Below are positions 6,362 to 27,211 of a stretch of 64,000 nucleotides of DNA, piece by piece. Positions within the stretch are counted from its first letter, which is position 1; each line of letters begins with the position of its first letter. Source of the stretch: Candidatus Endolissoclinum faulkneri L5 (GTDB taxonomy: Bacteria > Pseudomonadota > Alphaproteobacteria > Thalassobaculales > Thalassobaculaceae); assembly GCF_000510265.1 (NCBI RefSeq), contig NZ_CP006745.1:1323654-1387653 (forward strand), given 5' to 3'. The notes under the pieces were generated by a model, which saw nothing but the letters and a program-made list of their open reading frames with translations, ran no database searches and was not told where the DNA came from. A program made the position numbers and the translations under genes.

Positions 6362-8348
6362 CCCCTAGAAAGAAAATACAGCAAATATTAAAATCCTCTT
6401 CAAGTATTATTCTATTTAGATACAAATTATATCTATGTAGATACAAATTATAATGTATATCTGCATAAAACTACTTCTTAGCTTAGCTAAACGTTCAATA
6501 GGTACCTAAGATTTAAAAAATTATAAGCAAGATCATTGACCATAAATTAGCTAATCGAATAGTACCTTTAAGGTTTGTATTTACTAAATCTTATAAACTA
6601 TCACTAAACAGTTGATTTGTTTGTAATATTATCATTATCAAATCTAAAAATATGATTTTTGCCCTTAGCACAGCAATAATATACTTTATCTTTAATTAAT
6701 TTATTCAATGATCGCCTTATGAAATAATCACCTAATAAAACCTATTTATTGATTTGTATCTATCCAATATGCCGTTCTTCAAACGGTTAAGATGAGATAA
6801 ATAATCCAATTCAGAATGAAAATGATTCCATTAAAAATCTTATCGCTATCCATTAATTAATTTAATTTTTCGCTTTTTTATGTACAGTTAAGTAACCCTA
6901 CAGTGCAGCTTAATAAGCTTGTGTGAGATTGTTACTATTAGTGATTCTTTATATACTAAGAAGTTATAAACGCATTGAAATGAAATTAATAAGCTAATTA
7001 CTGATTAGCTATATAACTAAAATAAGTATTAAGAATATAACTGTTTAATACAATATTCTGTAACACGATTGAAAAAATACTTTAAGAAAGCAAAACTAAT
7101 CTGCATGGTTAATTAACATCATCTCTATTAGTAATAATAAAGATTTATTTAAAGTTTTTATAGTTTTTCATCGTTTTTCGCCGTATTTTAAAAAAGTACA
7201 GAATGACTGGTATTCCTTAAAGTAATCCATAACTGCGCAAAGCAGTTAAAATTTTATAATTAATTGTCTTGACCAGTGGCTATATACTTCTAGCCTATTC
7301 AGGTAATATAACGACTTAATACTATAAAATCTTAAATCGCTATTTTATAATTTTGTTAACTTAGTATATAAAGATATGCTAAGAAAGAGAATATTTAGGA
7401 GAGTGAAATTAGCATCTATGATTCTTATCCACCCATAGATAATCCGAATTACTTTATTCTTGCTTTATAAGCAAGTGTAACTTAATGTTACAGGTAATTG
7501 TTTTGCGCAATTATTTTTTTCGATAGATGCAATAAAAATAAGACTTATTTAAGTAATATTAATCCAAGCAGAAACATTAAACCAACAAATATCTATATTA
7601 ATAGCAGACAGTTAATGGCAAAATTAGTTAAAATTTTTACTCGCAGCGGCGATGTTTGTTGATTTAAATAATTTTAATACATAAGTTCTACAAATATTAG
7701 GCGCTTGATATAACCTAATCGTCTTAGTGTCTGTTTGTAGAAGAATTATATTTGTATACTTTTAGACATGATTAAAATTTAGATGCTTCCTATAAAATTG
7801 AATGATCTTGTAGGCCAGCTTGATTGCATCTGCTCTATAAATTAGCTTTGACAAATAAATCAAACCTAAACATTGGCTGATCAATAGACAAAAAGATATT
7901 TGCTAAAGCTCTAGAATATAATATTCTAGGAAGTCTGGAATAATTAAAAGATTTAAATTAAGAACATTAACTAAAAGATCAACATTTAACTGTTTACGAT
8001 TAAATTTGTAATACCATAGTAAATTTAATCTCCTTATATGATATGCTTTAATCTTCTTATTATGATATGCTAGTACTTAAACTATAATAAAAATTAATAT
8101 AGTTAATATAGTATATAGTTGATACTTTAAATTAAAAACAATATTTTAGATATTTGTGCCATTTGACATGACATACTAAATATTCTTATATTCTTCAGCA
8201 TTGAGGGTTTTACGAAATGTAAGATAATTTTCTACTAAGCATATATTTATTGTTAATTTTAATATATCATAGTCGGATAATAAACAGCAATTAATTGACA
8301 TATTGTTTTTTTGTATTACCTAAAAATTTCCTCAATAAATGGAGAAGC
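6362..8348. other. Gene-free spacer between divergent uvrB and aroA-like gene
   Basis: About 2 kb of strongly A+T-rich DNA between two divergently transcribed genes, so both promoters should lie here. I could not pick out a convincing -35/-10 pair against this base composition. It contains a 9-bp inverted repeat with a 1-nt loop at 7911-7929 and short tandem duplications (for example a TAGATACAAATTATA unit near 6417-6451). No protein relic was recognised. Confidence 0.65.
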
Positions 8349-9728
8349 ATGATTCATTCAGATAATCACTTAACATCATCTGATATGGAACCCTTTGTGT
8401 CTAAGCGACTGATTTCATCGCGTTCTCGCTCATTAGCTGGAAGAATAAACGTTCCTGGCGATAATTTGATTTCTCAACTTTCTCTAATTTTAGGAAGCTT
8501 ATCGATAGGTGAAACCATAATCGAAGGTTTGCTAGAAAGCGATGAGGTGCTTGCAACCGCTAAAGCGATGCAATCCTTCGGTGTTACAGTTGAGCAAATG
8601 GACAAAAGTGTTTATTGGAGAGTTGTAGGCCGTGGAGTAGGTGGTTTAGATGAGCCAGCAGATGTGATTCGTTGCGATAATACCAGTTCTATTGTGCAAT
8701 TGCTGATAGGTGCTGCAGTGGGTCAACCGATAACTACTTTTTTTACTAGTAATGAATCTTTCCAGTATCAATCGCTATCTCAAATCGTGGAGCCCTTGGA
8801 AAATATGGGAGTTAAAGTTATTGCACACAAAGAATTTACTCTACCAATTGCGGTAACTGGTCCTGAAACATTGGTACCGATTAGCTATCTCATAACATCT
8901 TCTTCTGTTTCAATTAAACCCGCTATCCTTATCGCAAGCATAGCGGCTCCGGGCGAGACTACCTTGATTGAATCAGTAAAAACCTATGATCATACTGAAA
9001 ACATGCTGCATTATTTTGGCGCTGAAATTAACATAAAAAACACAGAAGCAGGTCGTTGTGTCTCAGTGTTTGGTGAAGCAGAGCTGACTGGACGTCAGAT
9101 CATAATACCTGCCAATCCTTCCTCAGCCATTTTCCCAGCAGTTGCTGCTTTATTGATAGAAGATTCTGAGGTATTATTGCCTAATGTAAGTATTAATCCG
9201 CTACGTTTTTATTTATTCGAGACTTTACAAGAAATGGGGGCTGATATTCAGCTGCTTAACAGGCGTATTAAATGCGGTGAGCCAACCGCTGATTTAGTCG
9301 TGCGTCATTCACCGTTAAAGGGTATAGAAGTACCACAAGAGCAAGCTCTATCAATGATCGATGAATATCCTATTTTTATAATTGCTGCCGCTTGCGCTGA
9401 TGGGGTGACTATTATGCGAGGACTTGTCTCTAGAATGAAAATAAAGGAACGCAACCGGCTAATTGATACTATTGATGATTTGATTGCAGCTGGCGTTCGG
9501 ATTGAAATAGATGGTGCTGATCTGAAAGTGATAGGGACTAGTAATGGTGTAGCTGGTGGCGCAACGATATCGGTTGATATTGACGATCATATTATCCTAG
9601 CTTTTCTCGTACTGGGCATGGTCTCAATAGATGCGATCGTTATCAATGCCGTAACGGGAATTATTAACTCTTTTCCCGGCTTTAGTAAACTCATGAATAA
9701 AGCCGGTGCATCAATCATATATCGATGA
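8349..9728 (+). CDS. aroA: EPSP synthase-like protein with a degraded active site (candidate pseudoenzyme)
   Basis: The fold signature is that of class II 3-phosphoshikimate 1-carboxyvinyltransferase, and the locus (directly before cmk and rpsA) is the usual aroA place. However, active-site motifs are altered. PGDKSISHR is PGDNLISQL (residues 36-44), so the positions of E. coli K22, S23 and R27 are N, L and L. The class II FGNAATGCR stretch is RCDNTSSIVQ (108-117), losing R100. The RPM loop with R124 reads QSL (141-143). SAQVKS with Q171 reads SVSIKP. DHR with H385/R386 reads DDH. D313 (in MIDEYP), K340, E341 and R344 are kept. Length (459 aa) is normal and the frame has no break. ATG 8349 is chosen because GGAG lies 5 nt upstream; an in-frame ATG at 8295 lacks such a site. 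The stop overlaps the cmk start. EPSP synthase activity is doubtful. Confidence 0.85.
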   Translation: MIHSDNHLTSSDMEPFVSKRLISSRSRSLAGRINVPGDNLISQLSLILGSLSIGETIIEGLLESDEVLATAKAMQSFGVTVEQMDKSVYWRVVGRGVGGLDEPADVIRCDNTSSIVQLLIGAAVGQPITTFFTSNESFQYQSLSQIVEPLENMGVKVIAHKEFTLPIAVTGPETLVPISYLITSSSVSIKPAILIASIAAPGETTLIESVKTYDHTENMLHYFGAEINIKNTEAGRCVSVFGEAELTGRQIIIPANPSSAIFPAVAALLIEDSEVLLPNVSINPLRFYLFETLQEMGADIQLLNRRIKCGEPTADLVVRHSPLKGIEVPQEQALSMIDEYPIFIIAAACADGVTIMRGLVSRMKIKERNRLIDTIDDLIAAGVRIEIDGADLKVIGTSNGVAGGATISVDIDDHIILAFLVLGMVSIDAIVINAVTGIINSFPGFSKLMNKAGASIIYR

Positions 9729-10384
9729 TCATTGCTATTGATGGACCAGCAGGAGCTGGTAAAGGTACTCTTTCGAGATCACTGGCAGCTTATTTAGGAT
9801 ATCCCTATTTAGACACAGGTACACTATATCGAGCAGCTGCTCTCTATCTTATAAAGAATGGTGGTGCTCTTGATGATCCAACAGTTATAAAAGCTACCGT
9901 GGAGTCTGTAGCAGTTGATATTATTGATGACGATAATTTACGTACTAGCGAAATAGCGTTAGCTTCTTCTAAGATTGCTAAAATTCCGGCTGTGCGTGAA
10001 GCTTTGCTGGAATTTCAGCAAAAATTTGCGCATCGTTCTCCTGGTGCTATTTTAGATGGTCGTGATGTTACTACAGTGATAGCACCGGAAGCTGATGTGA
10101 AGTTGTTTGTTACAGCATTGTTAGAGGTGCGCGCTCTTCGCAGACATCAGGAGTTGCTAGACCGAGATCAGGTCAGTATATATGCTAAGGTTTTGGCTGA
10201 AATTAAAGCGCGTGACGAGCAAGATAAGCATAGAATTAGTGCTCCAATGCGTAAAGCAGATGATGCAATTGAAATTGATACTTCCGACCTTAAACCGCTG
10301 GATGTTTTTCGTATTGCTTTAACTGTTATATCTGAGGTAGCAAAAGGAAAATTTAGTATGCCAAAGCTTTTAATTAATAAATAG
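9725..10384 (+). CDS. cmk: Cytidylate kinase
   Basis: Phosphorylates CMP/dCMP with ATP in pyrimidine nucleotide recycling. The P-loop GPAGAGKG is at residues 7-14, the substrate-binding segment YLDTGTLYRA at about 29-38, and DGRDVTTVIAP near 112-122. At 219 aa it has the usual length, and all family motifs look sound. Its ATG overlaps the stop of the aroA-like gene by four bases (ATGA) with no clear ribosome site of its own inside that gene. Translation is therefore probably coupled to the upstream ORF, which may be one reason that ORF stays open. A hairpin at 10483-10515 may end the transcript. Confidence 0.96.
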   Translation: MIIAIDGPAGAGKGTLSRSLAAYLGYPYLDTGTLYRAAALYLIKNGGALDDPTVIKATVESVAVDIIDDDNLRTSEIALASSKIAKIPAVREALLEFQQKFAHRSPGAILDGRDVTTVIAPEADVKLFVTALLEVRALRRHQELLDRDQVSIYAKVLAEIKARDEQDKHRISAPMRKADDAIEIDTSDLKPLDVFRIALTVISEVAKGKFSMPKLLINK

Positions 10385-10649: not shown

Positions 10650-12356
10650 ATGGCAGAGGCCGCTTACGCAGACGAATTTGAATCCATGTTAGAGGAGTCG
10701 TTCGGTCATATACCCTCGATTGAGGGAAGTGTAGTTAAAGGTAAAGTAGTTAGTTTGGAGAATGAATATGCACTGATTGATGTGGGGCTTAAATCTGAAG
10801 GGCTTGTGGCATTGAAAGAATTCGCTTCTTCTGGCCATGATGTTAAGTTAAACGTTGGTGATGAGGTTGAAGTTTATGTTGAGCGCTTAGAAAACAATAA
10901 TGGTGAGACAATACTGAGTCGGGACAAGGCACGTCGTGAAGAAGCATGGGCTGCTTTAGAGCGTGCATTTAATAGTAGCGAACGAGTTACAGGTATAATC
11001 TTTTCACGCGTCAAAGGCGGTTTTACCGTTGACTTATCTGGCGCTATGGCGTTTTTGCCTGGTAGTCAAGTGGATATACGTCCTGTGCGTGATATTGGCC
11101 CGTTAATAGGTACTCCTCAACCATTTCAGATTCTTAAAATGGATCGTCGCCGTGGTAACATTGTAGTCTCCCGTCGTGCTGTTCTTGAAGAGAGTCGTGC
11201 AGAGGCAAGAAGTGAATTAGTTGCTTCGCTTAAGGAAGGTATGATTCTTCAAGGAGTGGTTAAAAATATAACCGACTACGGTGCTTTTGTTGACTTAGGC
11301 GGTGTTGATGGCCTACTGCATGTGACTGATATTGCTTGGCGTCGTATTAATCATCCTAATGAAGCCCTACAGATCGGTCAAACTGTAAAAGTGCAAGTGA
11401 TTCGTTTCAATCCAGAAACACAGCGTATTTCTCTAGGTATGAAGCAGCTCGAAGTCGATCCTTGGGAAGATGTTGAAATGCGTTATCTTGTCGGAGCAAA
11501 ATTTGCTGGCCGTGTCACTAACATCACTGATTACGGTGCTTTCGTTGAACTTCAGCCGGGTATCGAGGGTTTAGTTCATGTATCTGAAATGAGCTGGACC
11601 AAGAAGAATTTTCATCCCGGCAAGATTGTTTCAACATCTCAAGAGGTTGAGGTAATGATATTGGATCTTGATCCCCAAAAACGTCGTATCTCTCTTGGTT
11701 TAAAACAATGTCTTGGTAATCCCTGGGAAGAATTTATGAATAAATATCCTTCGGGTGCAGAACTTAATGGAGAAGTAAAAAACATTACTGAATTTGGTTT
11801 ATTTATTGGCCTTCCTGGCGAAATCGATGGCATGGTACATCTTTCTGATATCGATTGGAATACTCCTGGCGAAGAAGCCATCCAAAATTACAATAAGGGT
11901 GATATAGTTCGCGCAAAGGTTCTAGATATTGACGTCGAAAAAGAACGTATTTCTCTTGGTATTAAGCAATTAATAGTTGATCCTTTTGAGCTCGGTTCTA
12001 CTAGTACTCGTAAAGGAGCGGTCCTAACCTGTGTAGTCACTAAGATTGCTGATATTGGCATTGAAGTTAGTTTAGGTAACGGTATGAGCGGCTTCATACG
12101 CAAGTCAGATCTATCCCGCGATCGTTTCGAACAGCGCTCTGATCGTTTTGCCGTTGATGAAAAAGTTGATGCTAAGGTGATCAGTATTGATAACAAGACA
12201 CGTAGGGTTTTGCTATCCATTAAAGCACGCGAAGTTGAAGAGGAGAAAAAAGCTATGCAAGAATATGGGTCATCTGATAGCGGTGCTAGTCTTGGGGATA
12301 TTTTGGGTGCTGCGTTAAATCAACGCGAAGAAAGTAAAAAGACAAATGATGACTAA
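10650..12356 (+). CDS. rpsA: 30S ribosomal protein S1
   Basis: S1 binds mRNA on the small subunit and helps initiation on structured or weak ribosome sites. At 568 aa it carries six S1 (OB-fold) repeats at about 24-90, 108-175, 196-264, 281-350, 366-437 and 453-522. The middle ones carry the clear core ITDYGAFVDL / ITDYGAFVEL. The tail is charged and Asp/Glu/Lys-rich, as usual. A good ribosome site (GAGGAGAA) stands 5 nt before the ATG. The cmk-rpsA-ihfB order is widely conserved in proteobacteria. Nothing in the sequence looks impaired. Confidence 0.98.
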   Translation: MAEAAYADEFESMLEESFGHIPSIEGSVVKGKVVSLENEYALIDVGLKSEGLVALKEFASSGHDVKLNVGDEVEVYVERLENNNGETILSRDKARREEAWAALERAFNSSERVTGIIFSRVKGGFTVDLSGAMAFLPGSQVDIRPVRDIGPLIGTPQPFQILKMDRRRGNIVVSRRAVLEESRAEARSELVASLKEGMILQGVVKNITDYGAFVDLGGVDGLLHVTDIAWRRINHPNEALQIGQTVKVQVIRFNPETQRISLGMKQLEVDPWEDVEMRYLVGAKFAGRVTNITDYGAFVELQPGIEGLVHVSEMSWTKKNFHPGKIVSTSQEVEVMILDLDPQKRRISLGLKQCLGNPWEEFMNKYPSGAELNGEVKNITEFGLFIGLPGEIDGMVHLSDIDWNTPGEEAIQNYNKGDIVRAKVLDIDVEKERISLGIKQLIVDPFELGSTSTRKGAVLTCVVTKIADIGIEVSLGNGMSGFIRKSDLSRDRFEQRSDRFAVDEKVDAKVISIDNKTRRVLLSIKAREVEEEKKAMQEYGSSDSGASLGDILGAALNQREESKKTNDD

Positions 12357-15021: not shown

Positions 15022-18000
15022 TTATATTACATCATAATTGCTTTGAAGACAATCATCAGGTATGGGCATTAGATAAGGCCTACTTGTCCAAAGAAATGCG
15101 CAACGTACTAACCGACCAGGATATAAAGAAGATACTAATGTTCTATAGGCTGCCATCTGCTGCAAGTATGATTCTTCTACAGAATTAATAGACATTGGTG
15201 GCAATCGATTACTTTTGTAATCAACAATAAGTATACATTCTTCGCATACGACTAGCCGATCAATTACGCCAGAAATGGTTTGCAAACCATTTGGTCCATT
15301 TACTTGTCCAATAATTGGCACTTCTGCTCGAGAATTAAAAGCAAACACGGGAGCAAATTCTGGATGATTAAGAACCAATAATACTTCTTCCAACCAATCA
15401 TCCATTTTATTACCATTAGTATCGATATGTTTGCCAATTAAAGCAAGACCTGCTGCACGACGATATTGGGGCTCTAAATCAGGAAGCAATTGAAGCAAGC
15501 GGTGTAATAATACACCTCGCTTGAGGTGATCTGATCCATTCTTGTGTAAAGGTGAATTAACAATATTATTATTAACCAAAGCATGAGATGGAGCAACAGA
15601 ACGCAACCTAACTGTTTTGCCTGGAGCAATTACACTAACACGCGCCCAAGAAGGTAATAATTTAGGATAATGATATGGATTAACTACACTCGATTGAGAT
15701 ATATTTGATTTCTCTCCGGAAATGAATATTAAGCTACCGTCTTCTTTCTGCTCAGAAATGGAACGCATAGCCCAACAAACTTGGCCAAACCAACTTTTTT
15801 CAATTTTATCGTACTTTCCCTTCGAACCGTAGAAGATCAGCCAATCTTCAGCTCGAGTCATCGCGACATAGAGCAAGCGATAGTATTCTGCTTCCATTAG
15901 CGCTTGTGTCCTTGCACGCGCAGCAAAAGAAACACTATCGGCGCTAGAATTAGATGACAGCCATAGTGGCATATCTATGCCACTATGGTGCCAAATTATG
16001 CTGTTGCGTAACTGTGGTAGACGAACTGTATCTGGCAATATAACAATTGGAGCCTGAAGACCCTTAGCGCCATGAACGGTCATTACTCGCACCTGATTAA
16101 CTTCGGCACTATTTAATTGGCGTTTTACTTCATATTGACTAGTCGTAATCATATGCAGAAAGTTTTGTAAAGATGGTGGGTTATCCTGTTCGTCATCTAA
16201 AGCATGACCCAAAAATTCATCAATCGCATCATTACACTCAACTCCGTATCGAGAGATTAAGCGCTCACGAATACCTTCAGTTGACAAAAGTTGCTGATAA
16301 AAATCATGAGGTTGCAGGTGCTTTGCCATAATCGACCAACTAGCAAGTTTTTTAGCTGCCTGATCAAAAACGATATTTTTATTTGCTACACGCCACAGCT
16401 CTGCCCATAAGCGCTTCTCTTGGCGTCCATAAGCAAGATCCAGCAAATCCTCTTCTTTCAGCCCTATAAGCGGACCTTTCAGAACACAAGCTAGAGTCAA
16501 ATCATCATCAGGTAGCAACATTAGCTCACCCAAAGCTATTAAATCACGTACCGCCATATGCTCAGTTAACACCATGCGATCAACACCCCCCACTGGGATC
16601 CCAGTAAACTTAAAAGCACGAACTAATTCCGTCATAAAAGTACCTCGTCGACGAACTAGTATCATGATATCACCTGGACGAATAGGGCGGTTTTTTGCTT
16701 CTAATAACTCTCCCGAATTGAGCCAATTAGCGATGCGTTGAACAATAATCTGAGTTAAGCGCTTAACAGCATTATCTTCCGTAAGAGTAATGGATGATAA
16801 TGGTGACCAGCAATTAGGTTTTTCCTTTTCTGTTGCTTCAATCAATGGCCAAATCTCAACTCTTCCTACCTGCCCAATACGACTAGTTTGATGCGTGATC
16901 TTAGTCTTAACACCAGCAACGACATCTTCTACTCCATGATTTATGTTATCACAGCCAAAAACGGCATCTACTGCCTTTAGTACAGAAGCTGTAGAACGAA
17001 ATGATATATTCATTTCCACATCACGAAAAGCCTTATTGACTGTTTTTGCTCGTTCAGCTAAATATGATCTTGCATTCCTAAACTCCACTGGATCAGCGCC
17101 CTGAAAGCTATATATCGACTGCTTCGCATCCCCTACTACAAATATGGTACTCAAGCGCTCAGACTTTTTATCTATTACACTATTCTCTCCACTAAGAAAT
17201 ACCTCATCTGCCAACGCACGCACTATTTCCCATTGTGCTGAACTAGTGTCTTGAGCTTCATCAATTAATATATGTTCCAAATGGTTATCTAACTTAAATA
17301 GGGTCCAAGCAGCTTCTCCCTGAATAGTAAGTAAACGACGTAAATGTTCTACTAAATCCTCAAAATCAAGCAATCCGGAACGCGATTTAGCGGTCTCATA
17401 AGCAGTAATTACAGCAACAGATAAATGAATCAATGCAGCTGATCGTAAAGCTGTGTCTAGCGCCTTACGCATCTCCTCAACTGCTAAAATACGTTTTGCT
17501 TCAATGGCTAGATTATCGACTAGATTAGGTGTTTTATTCTGAATTTTTTTAGTGGCAAATCTGGACAGGATACTACCATCGTGTGTCAGAAAAGTTTGCT
17601 TATAATCATCCCAACCCAATGCCCTTGCATTGGTATTCGGTAGAGCAAGCCAAGCGAATAGTGTATTCGCACGCTTAATATCAGTTTTACTTCCGCCCGC
17701 TAAAGCTCGTGCAGAATCATACAAGGCCTTGCGCACAAAGGCGTTGTCTTTGCTGGCATTTCGCCGAATACTTAAGTCAGTATCCGCCGGATTAGTTCCG
17801 AGGGTATGATGTAAATTAGCGATGATTGCTTCGATACCACCTACTGCCTCTAATGAATGCATTAACCGTACACGCTGAAGCAGCATAGTCTTTAACAGAT
17901 CACTTACAGTCTGCTCAGTAGCTCGCTCGGCTATTATAGCTAAAGCTCTGGCTAAATCACTATCAGTTCCACTACACGCTATTTCCAGTACCAAGCGCTG

Positions 18001-18492
18001 TGCATCATCCAGCATAGATGCTGCCGTTCGATCGTTGGCAAGATGAAAATCTGGTGTTACACCAGACTCTAGTGGAAAGCGAAGTAACAAAGAATGAGCG
18101 AATGCGTGTATTGTTTTAATATTTAAACCACCAGGTGTGTCTAGCACCTTGGCAAACAAACGCCTTGCTTTATCTATACGATCCTGGGAAGCTGTTTGGT
18201 TATCCAACCCCTCCAATTCTGTCCTTAAAGCATCAGTGCTAATTGATGTCCATTTAGAAAGGATTCGCAATAAGCGTGTAGATATTTCTGTCGCAGCAGC
18301 CGTACTAAATGTCAAACAAAGCAAACCCTGCGGTTCGCAACCGAGCAACAAAAGTTTTAGCAACCGATCGATTAATACTTTGGTTTTACCAGAGCCAGCC
18401 GAAGCAGCTACCCAAACAGAAGTAGATGGGTCAGTAGCTTCTTGCTGATTACGAAGAGCTTTTTTAACTATGCTAAAAGAATCCAAAGGCAA
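15022..18492 (-). CDS. addA: AddA helicase-nuclease subunit (alphaproteobacterial type)
   Basis: AddA is the 3'-5' helicase and nuclease subunit of AddAB, which resects double-strand ends for RecA-dependent repair (the alphaproteobacterial counterpart of RecBCD). At 1156 aa it is full length. It shows Walker A SAGSGKT at 31-37, Walker B DEAQDTS in the first third, motif III FQGADPVEF, motif V VMTVHGAKGLQ, motif VI YVAMTRAEDW, and a C-terminal RecB-type nuclease motif VDYKSNR near residue 1100. It follows addB with 25 nt between them, so they are co-transcribed. A perfect 13-bp inverted repeat sits in the coding sequence at 15961-15988, and a 14-nt palindrome near 16594-16607. Confidence 0.95.
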   Translation of the reverse strand: MPLDSFSIVKKALRNQQEATDPSTSVWVAASAGSGKTKVLIDRLLKLLLLGCEPQGLLCLTFSTAAATEISTRLLRILSKWTSISTDALRTELEGLDNQTASQDRIDKARRLFAKVLDTPGGLNIKTIHAFAHSLLLRFPLESGVTPDFHLANDRTAASMLDDAQRLVLEIACSGTDSDLARALAIIAERATEQTVSDLLKTMLLQRVRLMHSLEAVGGIEAIIANLHHTLGTNPADTDLSIRRNASKDNAFVRKALYDSARALAGGSKTDIKRANTLFAWLALPNTNARALGWDDYKQTFLTHDGSILSRFATKKIQNKTPNLVDNLAIEAKRILAVEEMRKALDTALRSAALIHLSVAVITAYETAKSRSGLLDFEDLVEHLRRLLTIQGEAAWTLFKLDNHLEHILIDEAQDTSSAQWEIVRALADEVFLSGENSVIDKKSERLSTIFVVGDAKQSIYSFQGADPVEFRNARSYLAERAKTVNKAFRDVEMNISFRSTASVLKAVDAVFGCDNINHGVEDVVAGVKTKITHQTSRIGQVGRVEIWPLIEATEKEKPNCWSPLSSITLTEDNAVKRLTQIIVQRIANWLNSGELLEAKNRPIRPGDIMILVRRRGTFMTELVRAFKFTGIPVGGVDRMVLTEHMAVRDLIALGELMLLPDDDLTLACVLKGPLIGLKEEDLLDLAYGRQEKRLWAELWRVANKNIVFDQAAKKLASWSIMAKHLQPHDFYQQLLSTEGIRERLISRYGVECNDAIDEFLGHALDDEQDNPPSLQNFLHMITTSQYEVKRQLNSAEVNQVRVMTVHGAKGLQAPIVILPDTVRLPQLRNSIIWHHSGIDMPLWLSSNSSADSVSFAARARTQALMEAEYYRLLYVAMTRAEDWLIFYGSKGKYDKIEKSWFGQVCWAMRSISEQKEDGSLIFISGEKSNISQSSVVNPYHYPKLLPSWARVSVIAPGKTVRLRSVAPSHALVNNNIVNSPLHKNGSDHLKRGVLLHRLLQLLPDLEPQYRRAAGLALIGKHIDTNGNKMDDWLEEVLLVLNHPEFAPVFAFNSRAEVPIIGQVNGPNGLQTISGVIDRLVVCEECILIVDYKSNRLPPMSINSVEESYLQQMAAYRTLVSSLYPGRLVRCAFLWTSRPYLMPIPDDCLQSNYDVI
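15961..15988. repeat. Perfect 13-bp inverted repeat inside addA
   Basis: The arms 15961-15973 and 15976-15988 are exact reverse complements around a 2-nt loop (TC). On the coding strand the repeat encodes HSGIDMPLWL. The PLW part matches what I recall of the family, while the other arm covers a variable stretch. Confidence 0.95.
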
Positions 18493-18517: not shown

Positions 18518-21517
18518 CTACCAATCACCAACACGCGCTAAATGTTCATAATCCCTAAAGCGTAAATTGTAATGCGAATGAGGAGCAGGACAATAAGGAG
18601 TCTTTTCCTCATCAAAGGTAGCAATCAATGACTCTAAACCACTACGCGCTTCACTAATCAAACTAGGTACAATCTTGTCCACAAGATCGATTTTACCAGA
18701 TTGATTGCCCAATCCAACTCTCCAGTACTCCAATGAAGAAATATCTGCAGCTAAAATATCAGAGAATCCTCCGGCGAGTAAGATCATGGCCTCCAAAGGA
18801 AGTTGCGATGCCCAACCAGTCTTCAAATCGCTTAATGTTGGGTTTAATCCACTCTTATAATCAACAATTGAATAGCTACCATCCTTGCGCTTATCAATAC
18901 GATCAGCAGTACCAAAAAGTTCGAAAAGTCCACCTGGAGCAGGTACAGCAATGGTACCCTTAAGCTCAATAGCGGAATAATTAAGCGACTTTCTTCGCTC
19001 CCGTTCAACTTTTACGAACCAGCTTGCTACTCGCTTAAAACATGGCCACCAAAAAGCCCAGACACTAAGCCTATTTGCATAAGCAGCAAAACTGCGCTTG
19101 CCGTATGCAATTAAAATTTTATTTGCTTGAGGTGGCAAAGTGCGAGGATAATCGCGCACAAAATCACCTAAAGCCGCATGAATGGCCTTGCCGTACTCAG
19201 CAGCTCCAAGCTTCATATCAAGCGGATCCAGCTTACGCAAATTTAAAATATAACGAGCATAAATAGAATACGGATCGCGTAACCAAGTATTAATTTGAGT
19301 TATAGGCAAACGGCGCGGCCGTTGACTCAAGCGCGGTCGAGGCTCTGGTCGGCGCCCAGGATCAAAAACTTTAGGCATGTCAAGCAAATTATAGCCGTAA
19401 GATGGTAATTTTTGCCAAAATGTTAATTTTTCCTCGCTATTTAGCACACGAGCAACAGTATCAAGACGTAACAGCCAGCGCGAAGGAATAGTAGGATTGC
19501 CGCTATTTCTTTGAGAACGAGTAAGAAATATCTCTTGACTTCCCATAGCCATAGCTATATCATGAGCCGTTTTACCAATACTCAAATTAAGATCCGGCAA
19601 ACCAAAATTTCGACGCATGAGACGGCTTATCCATGGGTCTGATTCTGGCTTTGACGGACAATTACCTTCGTTGAGCCCGCCCAAAATCAGTCGATCAAAG
19701 GTCTGCAGCCTAGCCTCTGGTAAGCCTAAAATATGCAATCTTGCATTCATATTATAGTAGTGCTTAACAACTCGTTTTTCTAGCAACGCATTAAATAATC
19801 CTGGCCAATCCTTCCCAGCAATCGGATAAACATTAGCAGCAGCTGCGATAAATTCTCTAAACAGTTGAGCTATAACCGCGCCATCCTCCCCAGCCCATAA
19901 TCGTAAACTCCCATGAGCATCATGGGATGTTGCAAACATCTCCGCTGTACGCAAATGCACATTCATAATATCAATTAGTAATATCGCAGGACGGGATAAA
20001 GCGATTTCAAGTGGTCCAAGCGCCTTAGCCAACCACTGACAAAAATAAAGCAACAAATCAGCAGCAGCCTGATTAATCGTTCTTGATGGAATTATCGCCT
20101 CAATCGCTTTTAATAATCCAGCCAATCCAGCTGGAGGACGAGGCCCACGCAAGACTTCGCGATCAATGAGTCTAACTATCCACTCTAAGCGTTCTGGCGT
20201 TAGCCCACAATTACTTAACTGGTGTTTAAGTAGCGATAACAAAGCTACTGGAGCACAATCTATTGCTGCTCGAACCACGAGGCGCATAAATATTGCTGGT
20301 ACGCTATTAGACAATAGAAAACCACCGCAATCTTTAATTGCTATTTTTTCATTATCTTCCTGGTTGATTTGCCAACGATCTAGTTCATTCGAAACTCGAC
20401 GAGCAAGATCACGATCATTAGTAACAAGTGCAGCATTCTTGTCAGGCTGCTCCAGCACTTCTCGCATAAGTAATGCGATGATCTCAGCCTCTTCGCGCGA
20501 AGAAGATACATCTATTTTAATAATTTTCTCAAAATCAACTGGCTTAGGTGCTGCAACAGCAGTAAAAAGACTACACCAAACGTCAGTAGTAACAGCAGGT
20601 CGCATAATCTCATGGATTAACCGATCACGTCCGGTAATACTAAGCGAAGATGTCCAGTACTGGACATTAGCACGAGTAATACCTAGTGCGTTTATAAGTT
20701 TATTCATACCATGCTGTGGATGGGATGGGTCATTGGCAATGGCACTCCAGGTCAATTGATCACTATAAATATCCAAACCAGGTAGTACAATTGCACCGTT
20801 AGGCAAAGTTAATACAGCTTTCATTAATTCGGCAGTAGCAGGAATTAAATCGGTAAATCCAGCTAGGATAACCAAACTTCTAGGTTTTTTAGCAAGCAGG
20901 TGCGCAGCTTTAGCTCTTATTAAAGCACCTCGTCGAACCATTGGATCAATCGCTGATAATGCCTTCAACCGTGTATACCAACCTTCCACCACAACTGTTA
21001 GCAATGCAAGAGTCTTATCCCAAGAGCCGGCATACAAATTTGGAACAAGGTCCTTTAGCGAGGCAAAGCATAATTCATGCGTTTGTATTTCGTCGATCAG
21101 GTTAGCTAACTTTGTGGCTAGAAGATAAGCTTGTTCTGGAGTATGCGAAACATCACTACTAACATATGTATCAAAAAAACCTATTATTAGACGCATCAAT
21201 TCTAAATTACGCTGCAAGTTAGGTACTGCTGGAAGTATTTCTAGAGCGTAAACTTCATCACTTTTAGGGATTACCTCGCAATTCGATAAATATTCCTGTT
21301 CATCTGCTATAGTAGATAATTTTGGCAGCAATACTGCAGGAGTTGGTACTAAACGCAAGAAGGCTTTCGCAGTTGCACGTACTGCGATACGACTCGGTAG
21401 CACTACCTGTACATCGGTTAACTCAATAAGATTGCCATTAACCCTTTCCCATATCCCTGCTACCAAACAATCCAAAAATGGTGCGGTGATGGGGATGCTA
21501 TACAATCCGCCAGTCAT
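18518..21517 (-). CDS. addB: AddB double-strand break repair nuclease subunit
   Basis: Partner of AddA in the end-resecting helicase-nuclease. The 999-aa protein matches the alphaproteobacterial AddB family: a helicase-like N-terminal part without an obvious intact ATP-binding loop, the segment LILGGLNEGNCP near residue 600, and a C-terminal nuclease domain with PITQINTWLRDPYSIYARY followed by the catalytic IVDYKSG near residue 900. I see no four-cysteine iron-sulfur arrangement like that of Bacillus AddB. The start ATG at 21517 is preceded by A+T-rich DNA without a strong ribosome site. A perfect 18-nt palindrome lies in the coding region at 20650-20667. Keeping 6.5 kb of addAB in a genome this eroded implies strong selection for break repair. 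Confidence 0.93.
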   Translation of the reverse strand: MTGGLYSIPITAPFLDCLVAGIWERVNGNLIELTDVQVVLPSRIAVRATAKAFLRLVPTPAVLLPKLSTIADEQEYLSNCEVIPKSDEVYALEILPAVPNLQRNLELMRLIIGFFDTYVSSDVSHTPEQAYLLATKLANLIDEIQTHELCFASLKDLVPNLYAGSWDKTLALLTVVVEGWYTRLKALSAIDPMVRRGALIRAKAAHLLAKKPRSLVILAGFTDLIPATAELMKAVLTLPNGAIVLPGLDIYSDQLTWSAIANDPSHPQHGMNKLINALGITRANVQYWTSSLSITGRDRLIHEIMRPAVTTDVWCSLFTAVAAPKPVDFEKIIKIDVSSSREEAEIIALLMREVLEQPDKNAALVTNDRDLARRVSNELDRWQINQEDNEKIAIKDCGGFLLSNSVPAIFMRLVVRAAIDCAPVALLSLLKHQLSNCGLTPERLEWIVRLIDREVLRGPRPPAGLAGLLKAIEAIIPSRTINQAAADLLLYFCQWLAKALGPLEIALSRPAILLIDIMNVHLRTAEMFATSHDAHGSLRLWAGEDGAVIAQLFREFIAAAANVYPIAGKDWPGLFNALLEKRVVKHYYNMNARLHILGLPEARLQTFDRLILGGLNEGNCPSKPESDPWISRLMRRNFGLPDLNLSIGKTAHDIAMAMGSQEIFLTRSQRNSGNPTIPSRWLLRLDTVARVLNSEEKLTFWQKLPSYGYNLLDMPKVFDPGRRPEPRPRLSQRPRRLPITQINTWLRDPYSIYARYILNLRKLDPLDMKLGAAEYGKAIHAALGDFVRDYPRTLPPQANKILIAYGKRSFAAYANRLSVWAFWWPCFKRVASWFVKVERERRKSLNYSAIELKGTIAVPAPGGLFELFGTADRIDKRKDGSYSIVDYKSGLNPTLSDLKTGWASQLPLEAMILLAGGFSDILAADISSLEYWRVGLGNQSGKIDLVDKIVPSLISEARSGLESLIATFDEEKTPYCPAPHSHYNLRFRDYEHLARVGDW

Positions 21518-25429: not shown

Positions 25430-25759
25430 TACCACTTCACTGGGATCAAGATGATGATCCTGTTTATCGCAGTTTAATAATTAGTATGTCAAAAATAGCT
25501 AAGTGCAATGACGTTGTGATCTAACAACCTAGACTTATCGGGGTATATTCGCATAGAGTAAAATATATAGCAAAGGAAGCGATTGCAGCGACTATGCATA
25601 ACTAAAAACTAAAAATTTTTTAAAGCTATAACTGTTTATCAGTCAAGATATTCATGTGTTACTAGTAAAAATTTCACATAAAAACACAATATGTGCTCTT
25701 TAATCTTATTAAAAATTAGCAGACGGCTATAATAACACATCCGCTAGCATGCAACCATA

Positions 25760-27211
25760 GGTTTATCTTGCATTTGGCATTAGTGAAATTTTAAAAGAAC
25801 AGAAAGCATCACATTAGTAGAAATCAAACAATTTCGAAACAACCTACTTAATCAGAGACTCGATTTGAATTATTTGCGCAATCAAGAAGTAGATATTCGC
25901 AAAAGCACAATCTAATGAATTGCATGATAAGCTATTTGCTTTATAATAAATTACTTCTATCATTCCGAGTAGAATATAAGAAAACCATACTAGATATCAC
26001 AAAAATGCGACGAAAAGTCGAAATTGAGCAACTAATTCGATATTATAACCTTCCGTTTATTGCTTAATGATATCAGTGTTTGCTAGTAATTTATTAGCAT
26101 CATGCATAACCTTCAATCTGGTAGTGTCAAGTGTTTTAAAAAATTACATGTCTATACCAAAAATGAATAGATATCATTTACTACATAATAACTTCATTAT
26201 CCAATATTGCCAACGTATTGAGATGCACTTATTGTTGAGTTTTGAGTAGCTGCCCAGTGCAAATAAAAAAGAATGTTATTGAACTAATGATGGCAAATAA
26301 TATAAGTTAATTCATGAGTTATTCGATATTTTTTAAGCGAGCTTCAAGTAGTGAAAAGTTTTTTTTGAGCAACCACTAAAAAACGACTTACCAAGATAAT
26401 AGTTTTGCTTGCCGCTAAAGGAAATCTAATTTTTCTGCAACAAGTACGTGAGGGCAATTGATTTTACTTAAGCTGTCCGCTCAGATCGTGCGCTTAAAGG
26501 GAAAGCAACACTGATTTGTCTTTAAGTAAGCCTTTATTATATAAAATATTCACAAGAAGATTATTATTCTTTACTAAGAGAAAACTTGAAAAACTTCTCG
26601 ATAAGCTCAATACTTGATGTATTAGCAATCTCCATGCTTCTAGAATCGCGATGTAATCTGAAAGGTGCTTATAGAAATCTTTCTGTAGGCTTTATCTGCC
26701 AACTATCAGATAAAACCAGTAGTATCATTGTCAATCGCTTAGCATAAGCTACTATAAAGTAAGAAGTTTACAAGATCGCAATGCCGATCCGATCATTAAG
26801 CAAATGCCACGACAATGTATTTCATTAAAACTACTCTCATCCGTTACCTGTAAAAAATATCTTCGATATCGTAAATCATAACAAAGAGACACAAATCATG
26901 TTAGTTGATTGCAAGACCCTGGGGGTCACAAAACTAGCCAATGCACTTGATTGAAGTAGTCTAGGATAATGGTATCAGTCAAATCGATATTAATCATCAA
27001 AAAGTAGTAATATCCAACAAGAGACGGATTGTTGATTCTTATCAATTATTATCGGACAATAATCGTAGTACAATCGTTAACTTAAAAAAATTAATGAATC
27101 GATCCATCAAGTTTTAAAAATCATGATTGACCTGTAATATAGTTTATTTTACCTGCCTAGTATAATTATAACTGCCTACCTGCACCACAGGTAATCAATT
27201 CTGTGGATCAT
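25760..27211 (+). pseudogene. Decayed relA/spoT homologue (rsh)
   Basis: A frameshifted relic of the bifunctional (p)ppGpp synthetase/hydrolase sits where it belongs, between rpoZ and lepB. Family blocks appear in order but in different frames with stops: RLDLNYLRNQEVDIRKSTI (about 25856-25912); synthetase-domain KMRRKVEIEQL (26002-26034, family KMQRKNVGFEQL) then FDIITFRLL (26036-26062, family SDIMAFRVI); KNYMSIPKMNRYHLLH (about 26139-26186, family KDYISTPKPNGYRSLH) and QRIEMHL; TGS-domain AIDFT-stop-AVRSD (about 26454-26486, family PVDFAYAVHSD); LVDCKTL (about 26900-26921); ACT-domain NRSTIVNLKKLMNRS (about 27060-27107, family GNISNLKITNRS); and QVINSV (27188-27205, family PVINSV). The N-terminal hydrolase domain is not recognisable in 25430-25760 and is probably partly deleted. 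It cannot be translated as one protein. Confidence 0.85.

Follow-up and report, generated by a model that had tools for sequence, protein, structure and literature searches.

An EPSP synthase-fold protein with a lost catalytic pocket is retained under selection in the tunicate symbiont Candidatus Endolissoclinum faulkneri

EPSP synthase is the target of glyphosate and a very well studied enzyme. The described system closest to the locus studied here is class II EPSP synthase (AroA, EC 2.5.1.19; CP4 type, 2gg6), which has the same fold, length and position before cmk and rpsA as an ORF of Candidatus Endolissoclinum faulkneri L5. The two differ in that eight of twelve core pocket residues are replaced in L5 (nine of twelve in the sister strain L2), in the absence of the pathway and in a sub-cut-off score against the curated aroA family. 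MurA, the UDP-GlcNAc enolpyruvyl transferase, belongs to the same enolpyruvyl transferase fold superfamily as the product of this ORF (pseudo-AroA); it differs in that a separate, normal murA is present in the symbiont genome, and takeover of the MurA role by the aroA ORF was ruled out on that ground. In AroA-Cmk fusions (NCBIfam PRK11860) the same two proteins are joined, whereas aroA and cmk of L5 are two ORFs that overlap by 4 nt and do not form one polypeptide. Pseudoenzymes in general have lost catalytic residues and kept fold and selection, as is the case for L5 aroA. No report of an EPSPS pseudoenzyme was found in a search of the open-access literature.

Ca. Endolissoclinum faulkneri L5 and L2 are symbionts of the tunicate Lissoclinum patella, with a divergence estimated at 6–31 million years (PMC3851785). 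Amino-acid biosynthesis is deficient in Ca. E. faulkneri according to that paper, whose main text makes no mention of aroA or shikimate (PMC3851785). The L5 genome is a single contig of 1,518,636 bases and that of L2 (G005) comprises 1,481,191 bases; the other congeners, at about 5 Mb, are evidently not reduced. The DNA analysed is a 64,000-nt stretch of the L5 genome, referred to below as the window, and positions are given within it. Two long, intact minus-strand ORFs in the window (15022–18492 and 18518–21517) were named by eye as AddA-/AddB-like (helicase-nuclease) and gave omega values of 0.25–0.30 between the strains; Ca. E. faulkneri is reported to be without recA (PMC3851785).

The gene order at the locus is aroA-cmk-rpsA, followed by an integration-host-factor-like gene (Table 1). 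The 459-codon uninterrupted frame described at this place in the first-pass annotation was confirmed at 8349–9728 on the plus strand, with 459 codons plus stop; an upstream in-frame TTG lengthens it to 8295. The TTGACA box found there is a possible operon promoter. In L2, the first codons of aroA as it begins in L5 do not lie in frame, and the start is therefore not the same in the two strains; the TGA of a 7-codon ORF directly abuts the ATG of the main L2 aroA ORF (L050:12967-12992). The L2 aroA stop is displaced downstream, which lengthens the overlap with cmk from 4 to 17 nt (L050:14349-14365). The cmk gene is unusually divergent between L2 and L5 (75% identity, dN/dS 0.25) and changes faster than aroA; its conserved motifs are apparently intact.

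Table 1. Features of the pseudo-aroA locus, in window positions; residue numbers are those of CP4 EPSP synthase unless indicated otherwise.
Feature	Position	Strand	Basis or remark
TTGACA box 5′ of pseudo-aroA	8295..8300	+	sequence; common to both strains
pseudo-aroA, EPSPS-fold ORF with catalytic pocket lost	8349..9728	+	GGAG about 8 nt upstream of start
former KSISHR substrate-binding turn, codons 39–44, now NLISQL (L2 NLISQR)	8463..8480	+	alignment
former RPMGR (Arg128 to Arg132), codons 141–145, now QSLSQ	8769..8783	+	alignment
former SAQ (173–175), codons 186–188, now SVS (L2 SDS)	8904..8912	+	alignment
former Arg200, codon 213, now Tyr in both strains	8985..8987	+	alignment
catalytic Asp (Asp326, E. 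coli D313), codon 338; kept in L5, Asn in L2	9360..9362	+	alignment
former His-Arg of DHR (404–405), codons 413–414, now Asp-His (L2 Asp-Cys)	9585..9590	+	alignment
ATGA overlap, aroA stop/cmk start	9725..9728	+	sequence read
cmk, (d)CMP kinase, apparently intact	9725..10384	+	TIGR00017 167 bits, cut-off 135.6; alignment
rpsA, 30S ribosomal protein S1	10650..12356	+	above curated family cut-off

Homology of the aroA ORF to EPSP synthases extends over its full length (Pfam EPSP_synthase, E 2e-62), and a match to CP4 EPSPS spans residues 22–456. Identity to CP4 EPSPS is 39%. The score against the curated aroA family TIGR01356 was 240.6 bits, below the cut-off of 287.25, and that against the curated murA family was 33 bits for a cut-off of 392.7. 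When the gene is compared with the genus, the only length changes in its body are two insertions of one residue each, and there is no deletion. A model obtained by using AlphaFold2 reached a pLDDT of 88.2 and a pTM of 0.87 from an input alignment with 18 relatives, which may draw the model towards the family fold. Its best structural match was liganded CP4 EPSPS, 2gg6 (Z 48.8, rmsd 2.6 over 436 residues), and the EPSP synthase fold of pseudo-AroA is thus predicted to be intact.

The core of the S3P/PEP pocket was taken, from 2gg6 and 1g6s, to consist of Lys28, Ser29, Arg33, Arg128, Gln175, Arg200, Asp326, Lys353, Glu354, Arg357, His404 and Arg405 (CP4 numbering); this list of twelve combines structural knowledge with invariance measured among relatives. 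Glu354 is also named in PMC3371024. The twelve residues read KSRRQRDKERHR in 49 other EPSP synthases, which range from Alphaproteobacteria to Firmicutes and include those of Nitrospira, Synechococcus, Blautia and Enterococcus; the exceptions are the most distant sequence, which has one gap, and L018, in which two of the positions lie beyond the aligned stretch. The corresponding residues are NLLQSYDKERDH in L5 and NLRQSYNKEQDC in L2. L5 and L2 agree in the residues that replace Lys28, Ser29, Arg128, Gln175, Arg200 and His404; Arg405 is also gone from both, but its replacement differs between them. Arg33 (E. coli R27) is lost in L5 only and kept as Arg in L2, whereas Asp326 and Arg357 are lost in L2 only; L5 still has Asp326, Lys353, Glu354 and Arg357 (E. 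coli D313, K340, E341 and R344). Losses in L5 beyond those first noticed are R200Y, A174V, T101S and E349R in CP4 numbering. The eight substitutions listed in the first-pass annotation, in E. coli numbering K22N, S23L, R27L, R100Q, R124Q, Q171S, H385D and R386H, were all found to be correct and in register. The alignment with the relatives is collinear, which rules out that the catalytic residues have been displaced to another part of the protein.

The claim that the loss is concentrated at the active site was examined in 80 columns that are at least 95% conserved in 48 relatives, 20 of them in the pocket and 60 elsewhere. Changes in at least one strain were present in 16 of the 20 pocket columns and in 16 of the 60 others, a concentration beyond chance (Fisher p = 4e-5). 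Columns that differ between L2 and L5 were likewise more frequent in the pocket (8/20) than among the other conserved columns (6/60; p 0.005). The seven pocket losses common to L5 and L2 are therefore older than the strain split. Independent loss is unlikely for six identical core replacements, which indicates that catalysis was lost before the strains separated. The L5 aroA product is almost certainly a dead EPSP synthase.

The two genomes were searched for the remainder of the pathway. AroB, AroK, AroE and AroC gave no match in L5 (G000) or L2 (G005), and neither did class II DAHP synthase or chorismate-binding enzymes of the TrpE/PabB type; the set of enzymes sought did not extend to dehydroquinase or to DAHP synthase of class I. 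Pathway enzymes were clearly matched in the free-living congeners G001 and G003 and in G007. There was no second AroA in either strain, the only other superfamily member found being a normal MurA in both. Apart from aroA, the shikimate pathway thus appears to have been lost from the symbiont, as no further enzyme of those sought was found. In a survey of 385 alphaproteobacterial genomes, aroC was present in 293, and 374 gave a match to aroA or its paralogue murA. Six aroC-negative genomes were followed up: the match was MurA in G215, G374 and G178 and was left unclassified in G273, and G344 and G365, for which an aroC match is absent, carry an AroA with an intact pocket. These six yielded no further case of a full-length AroA that is an orphan and has lost its pocket; the other aroC-negative genomes with strong aroA scores are drafts outside the follow-up, and 72 aroC-negative genomes lay outside those listed.

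Selection on aroA was estimated between L2 and L5 with a pairwise codon model, which gave dN 0.104, dS 0.42 and omega 0.25; omega = 1 was rejected (2dlnL 73). Controls were taken from the 64,000-nt window only, with omega 0.246 for cmk, 0.06 for rpsA and 0.06–0.36 for 31 window genes. The aroA ORF therefore encodes, with very little doubt, a selected protein and not a decaying pseudogene. Sites were further divided into a pocket class and into buried-like and surface-like classes, the latter two being proxies based on family composition and not on solvent exposure. Rates in these classes show that the old pocket drifted and that core and surface-like sites stayed under purifying selection after catalysis was lost.

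The cmk gene is generally essential. Its start falls within the aroA ORF in both strains, and no Shine-Dalgarno site at usable spacing was found for it in either; the only pairing in L5 lies about 20 nt upstream. This arrangement suggests termination-reinitiation, and cmk presumably depends on ribosomes that finish aroA. Breakage or deletion of aroA would then silence cmk, and the aroA frame may have been spared because its stop and the start of an essential gene share nucleotides. The chances that coupling to cmk was the reason for the first retention of aroA are about even.

The arrangement also lends itself to another explanation, namely that aroA is only a translated leader for cmk, with a sequence kept just for harmless folding and no function in trans. 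The overlaps in L5 and L2 and the lack of a usable cmk Shine-Dalgarno site fit this explanation, which would also account for the survival of aroA alone from the pathway and for a core (buried-like sites, omega 0.15) that is more constrained than surface-like sites. A pure leader, however, predicts omega near 1, which was rejected, and should tolerate in-frame deletions, yet none has been fixed; surface-like sites, moreover, are well below neutral (omega 0.32, different from 1 with p 4e-7). Coupling accounts for the open frame, but not by itself for surface-like conservation or for the absence of in-frame deletions, and a role in trans is therefore favoured. Avoidance of misfolding in an obligatorily made protein could yield part of the low omega. 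On balance, the leader explanation is considered unlikely, and a specific role in trans is slightly preferred to mere maintenance of the fold.

A remodelled pocket with a new ligand or new enolpyruvyl-transfer chemistry, the former having been offered as an option in the first-pass annotation, is very improbable. The persistence of Asp326, Lys353, Glu354 and Arg357 in L5 and the six replacements that are identical in the two strains would be in keeping with it. Most of the residues in contact with PEP and phosphate have been lost, however, and L2 is also without Asp326 and Arg357. The pocket class, of only 20 codons, had omega 0.72, a value compatible with 1 (p 0.40) and above that of the remaining sites (p 0.007). 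These data speak against a different ligand bound by the old pocket, and the function still selected apparently does not use that pocket.

Still less credit is given to the explanation that aroA is a decaying pseudogene that by chance is undisrupted. The pathway is gone, the pocket is drifting, and Kwan and Schmidt have pointed out that some intact genes of Ca. E. faulkneri may be nonfunctional (PMC3851785). Against this stand the dN/dS of 0.25 at dS 0.42 and a neutral simulation to the aroA divergence, in which a mean of 16 stops and never fewer than five arose in 2000 runs; none was observed. True decay is displayed in the same window by the relic of relA/spoT, a pseudogene of L5 published at 1349258–1350574 (PMC3851785), which corresponds to window 25605–26921. 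The relic was located at 25616–26465, contains many stops and frameshifts, is common to L2 and was used as a decay control. Its L2-L5 alignment has 67% identity and 38 gap openings in 873 columns, as compared with 86% identity and one gap in 1310 nt for aroA, in the body of which there is no frameshift between the strains. Pure decay is thus rejected over the L2-L5 divergence by dN/dS, stop simulation and relA control alike, and the first-pass preference for a pseudoenzyme over simple decay is upheld. The ORF combines homology to active enzymes and loss of catalytic residues with a retained fold and purifying selection, and shows none of the stops, frameshifts or dN/dS near 1 that mark a pseudogene. 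That aroA still encodes an active EPSP synthase, whose missing residues have moved or are not needed, is scarcely credible, since, for all that fold and operon are intact, the collinear alignment reveals no displaced residue and no enzyme was found that would make shikimate 3-phosphate or use EPSP.

The best reading, to which we assign a probability of roughly 0.6, is that pseudo-AroA is an EPSPS pseudoenzyme whose structure is maintained for a role independent of the pocket, and that it was probably first saved by the overlap with cmk. The pocket would have been destroyed before the L2/L5 split, with the shikimate pathway otherwise lost, and the gene would have been spared deletion through its stop. 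The obligatorily made protein would then have preserved or acquired a function in trans that does not involve the pocket; the most plausible is that of a structural partner, either for Cmk, which is translated along with it, or for another protein. Cmk is the foremost candidate, since it is produced together with pseudo-AroA and since some bacteria have AroA-Cmk fusions (PRK11860); the step from pseudo-AroA to a protein partner is one that we infer. The full sequence of events, in which an EPSPS was made non-catalytic and, after rescue by translational coupling, acquired a new role that is essential or beneficial, such as partnership with Cmk, is put forward tentatively, at somewhat less than even odds.

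The tempo of change was read from a fixed protein tree. For aroA, the stem to the symbionts measured 0.568 and the tips 0.223, a ratio of 2.55; the ratio was 1.45 for cmk, 1.66 for rpsA, 1.63 for murA and 2.57 for ihfB (91 residues). The long aroA stem is in keeping with rapid change when catalysis was lost and a later return of constraint, and is suggestive only, since the very short ihfB has the same ratio. When scaled to free-living divergence, the aroA tips were as fast as those of cmk and faster than those of murA and rpsA, so that constraint on pseudo-AroA is weaker than on a standard enzyme.

Both sequenced strains of this obligate sea squirt symbiont keep a pathway-orphaned EPSPS that is intact and selected and has its pocket destroyed; the protein probably does something other than the textbook reaction. 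Reduced symbiont genomes are usually taken as inventories of retained functions, and annotation by homology would call this aroA a leftover amino-acid enzyme; the evidence is that the enzyme is dead and that the protein still matters. The locus raises the testable question of whether operon architecture and translational coupling act as arbiters of gene survival in genome reduction, and the related one of whether survivors saved by coupling turn into pseudoenzymes. If the reading is true, this would be an example of an operon overlap that seeded a pseudoenzyme in a genome-reducing chordate symbiont.
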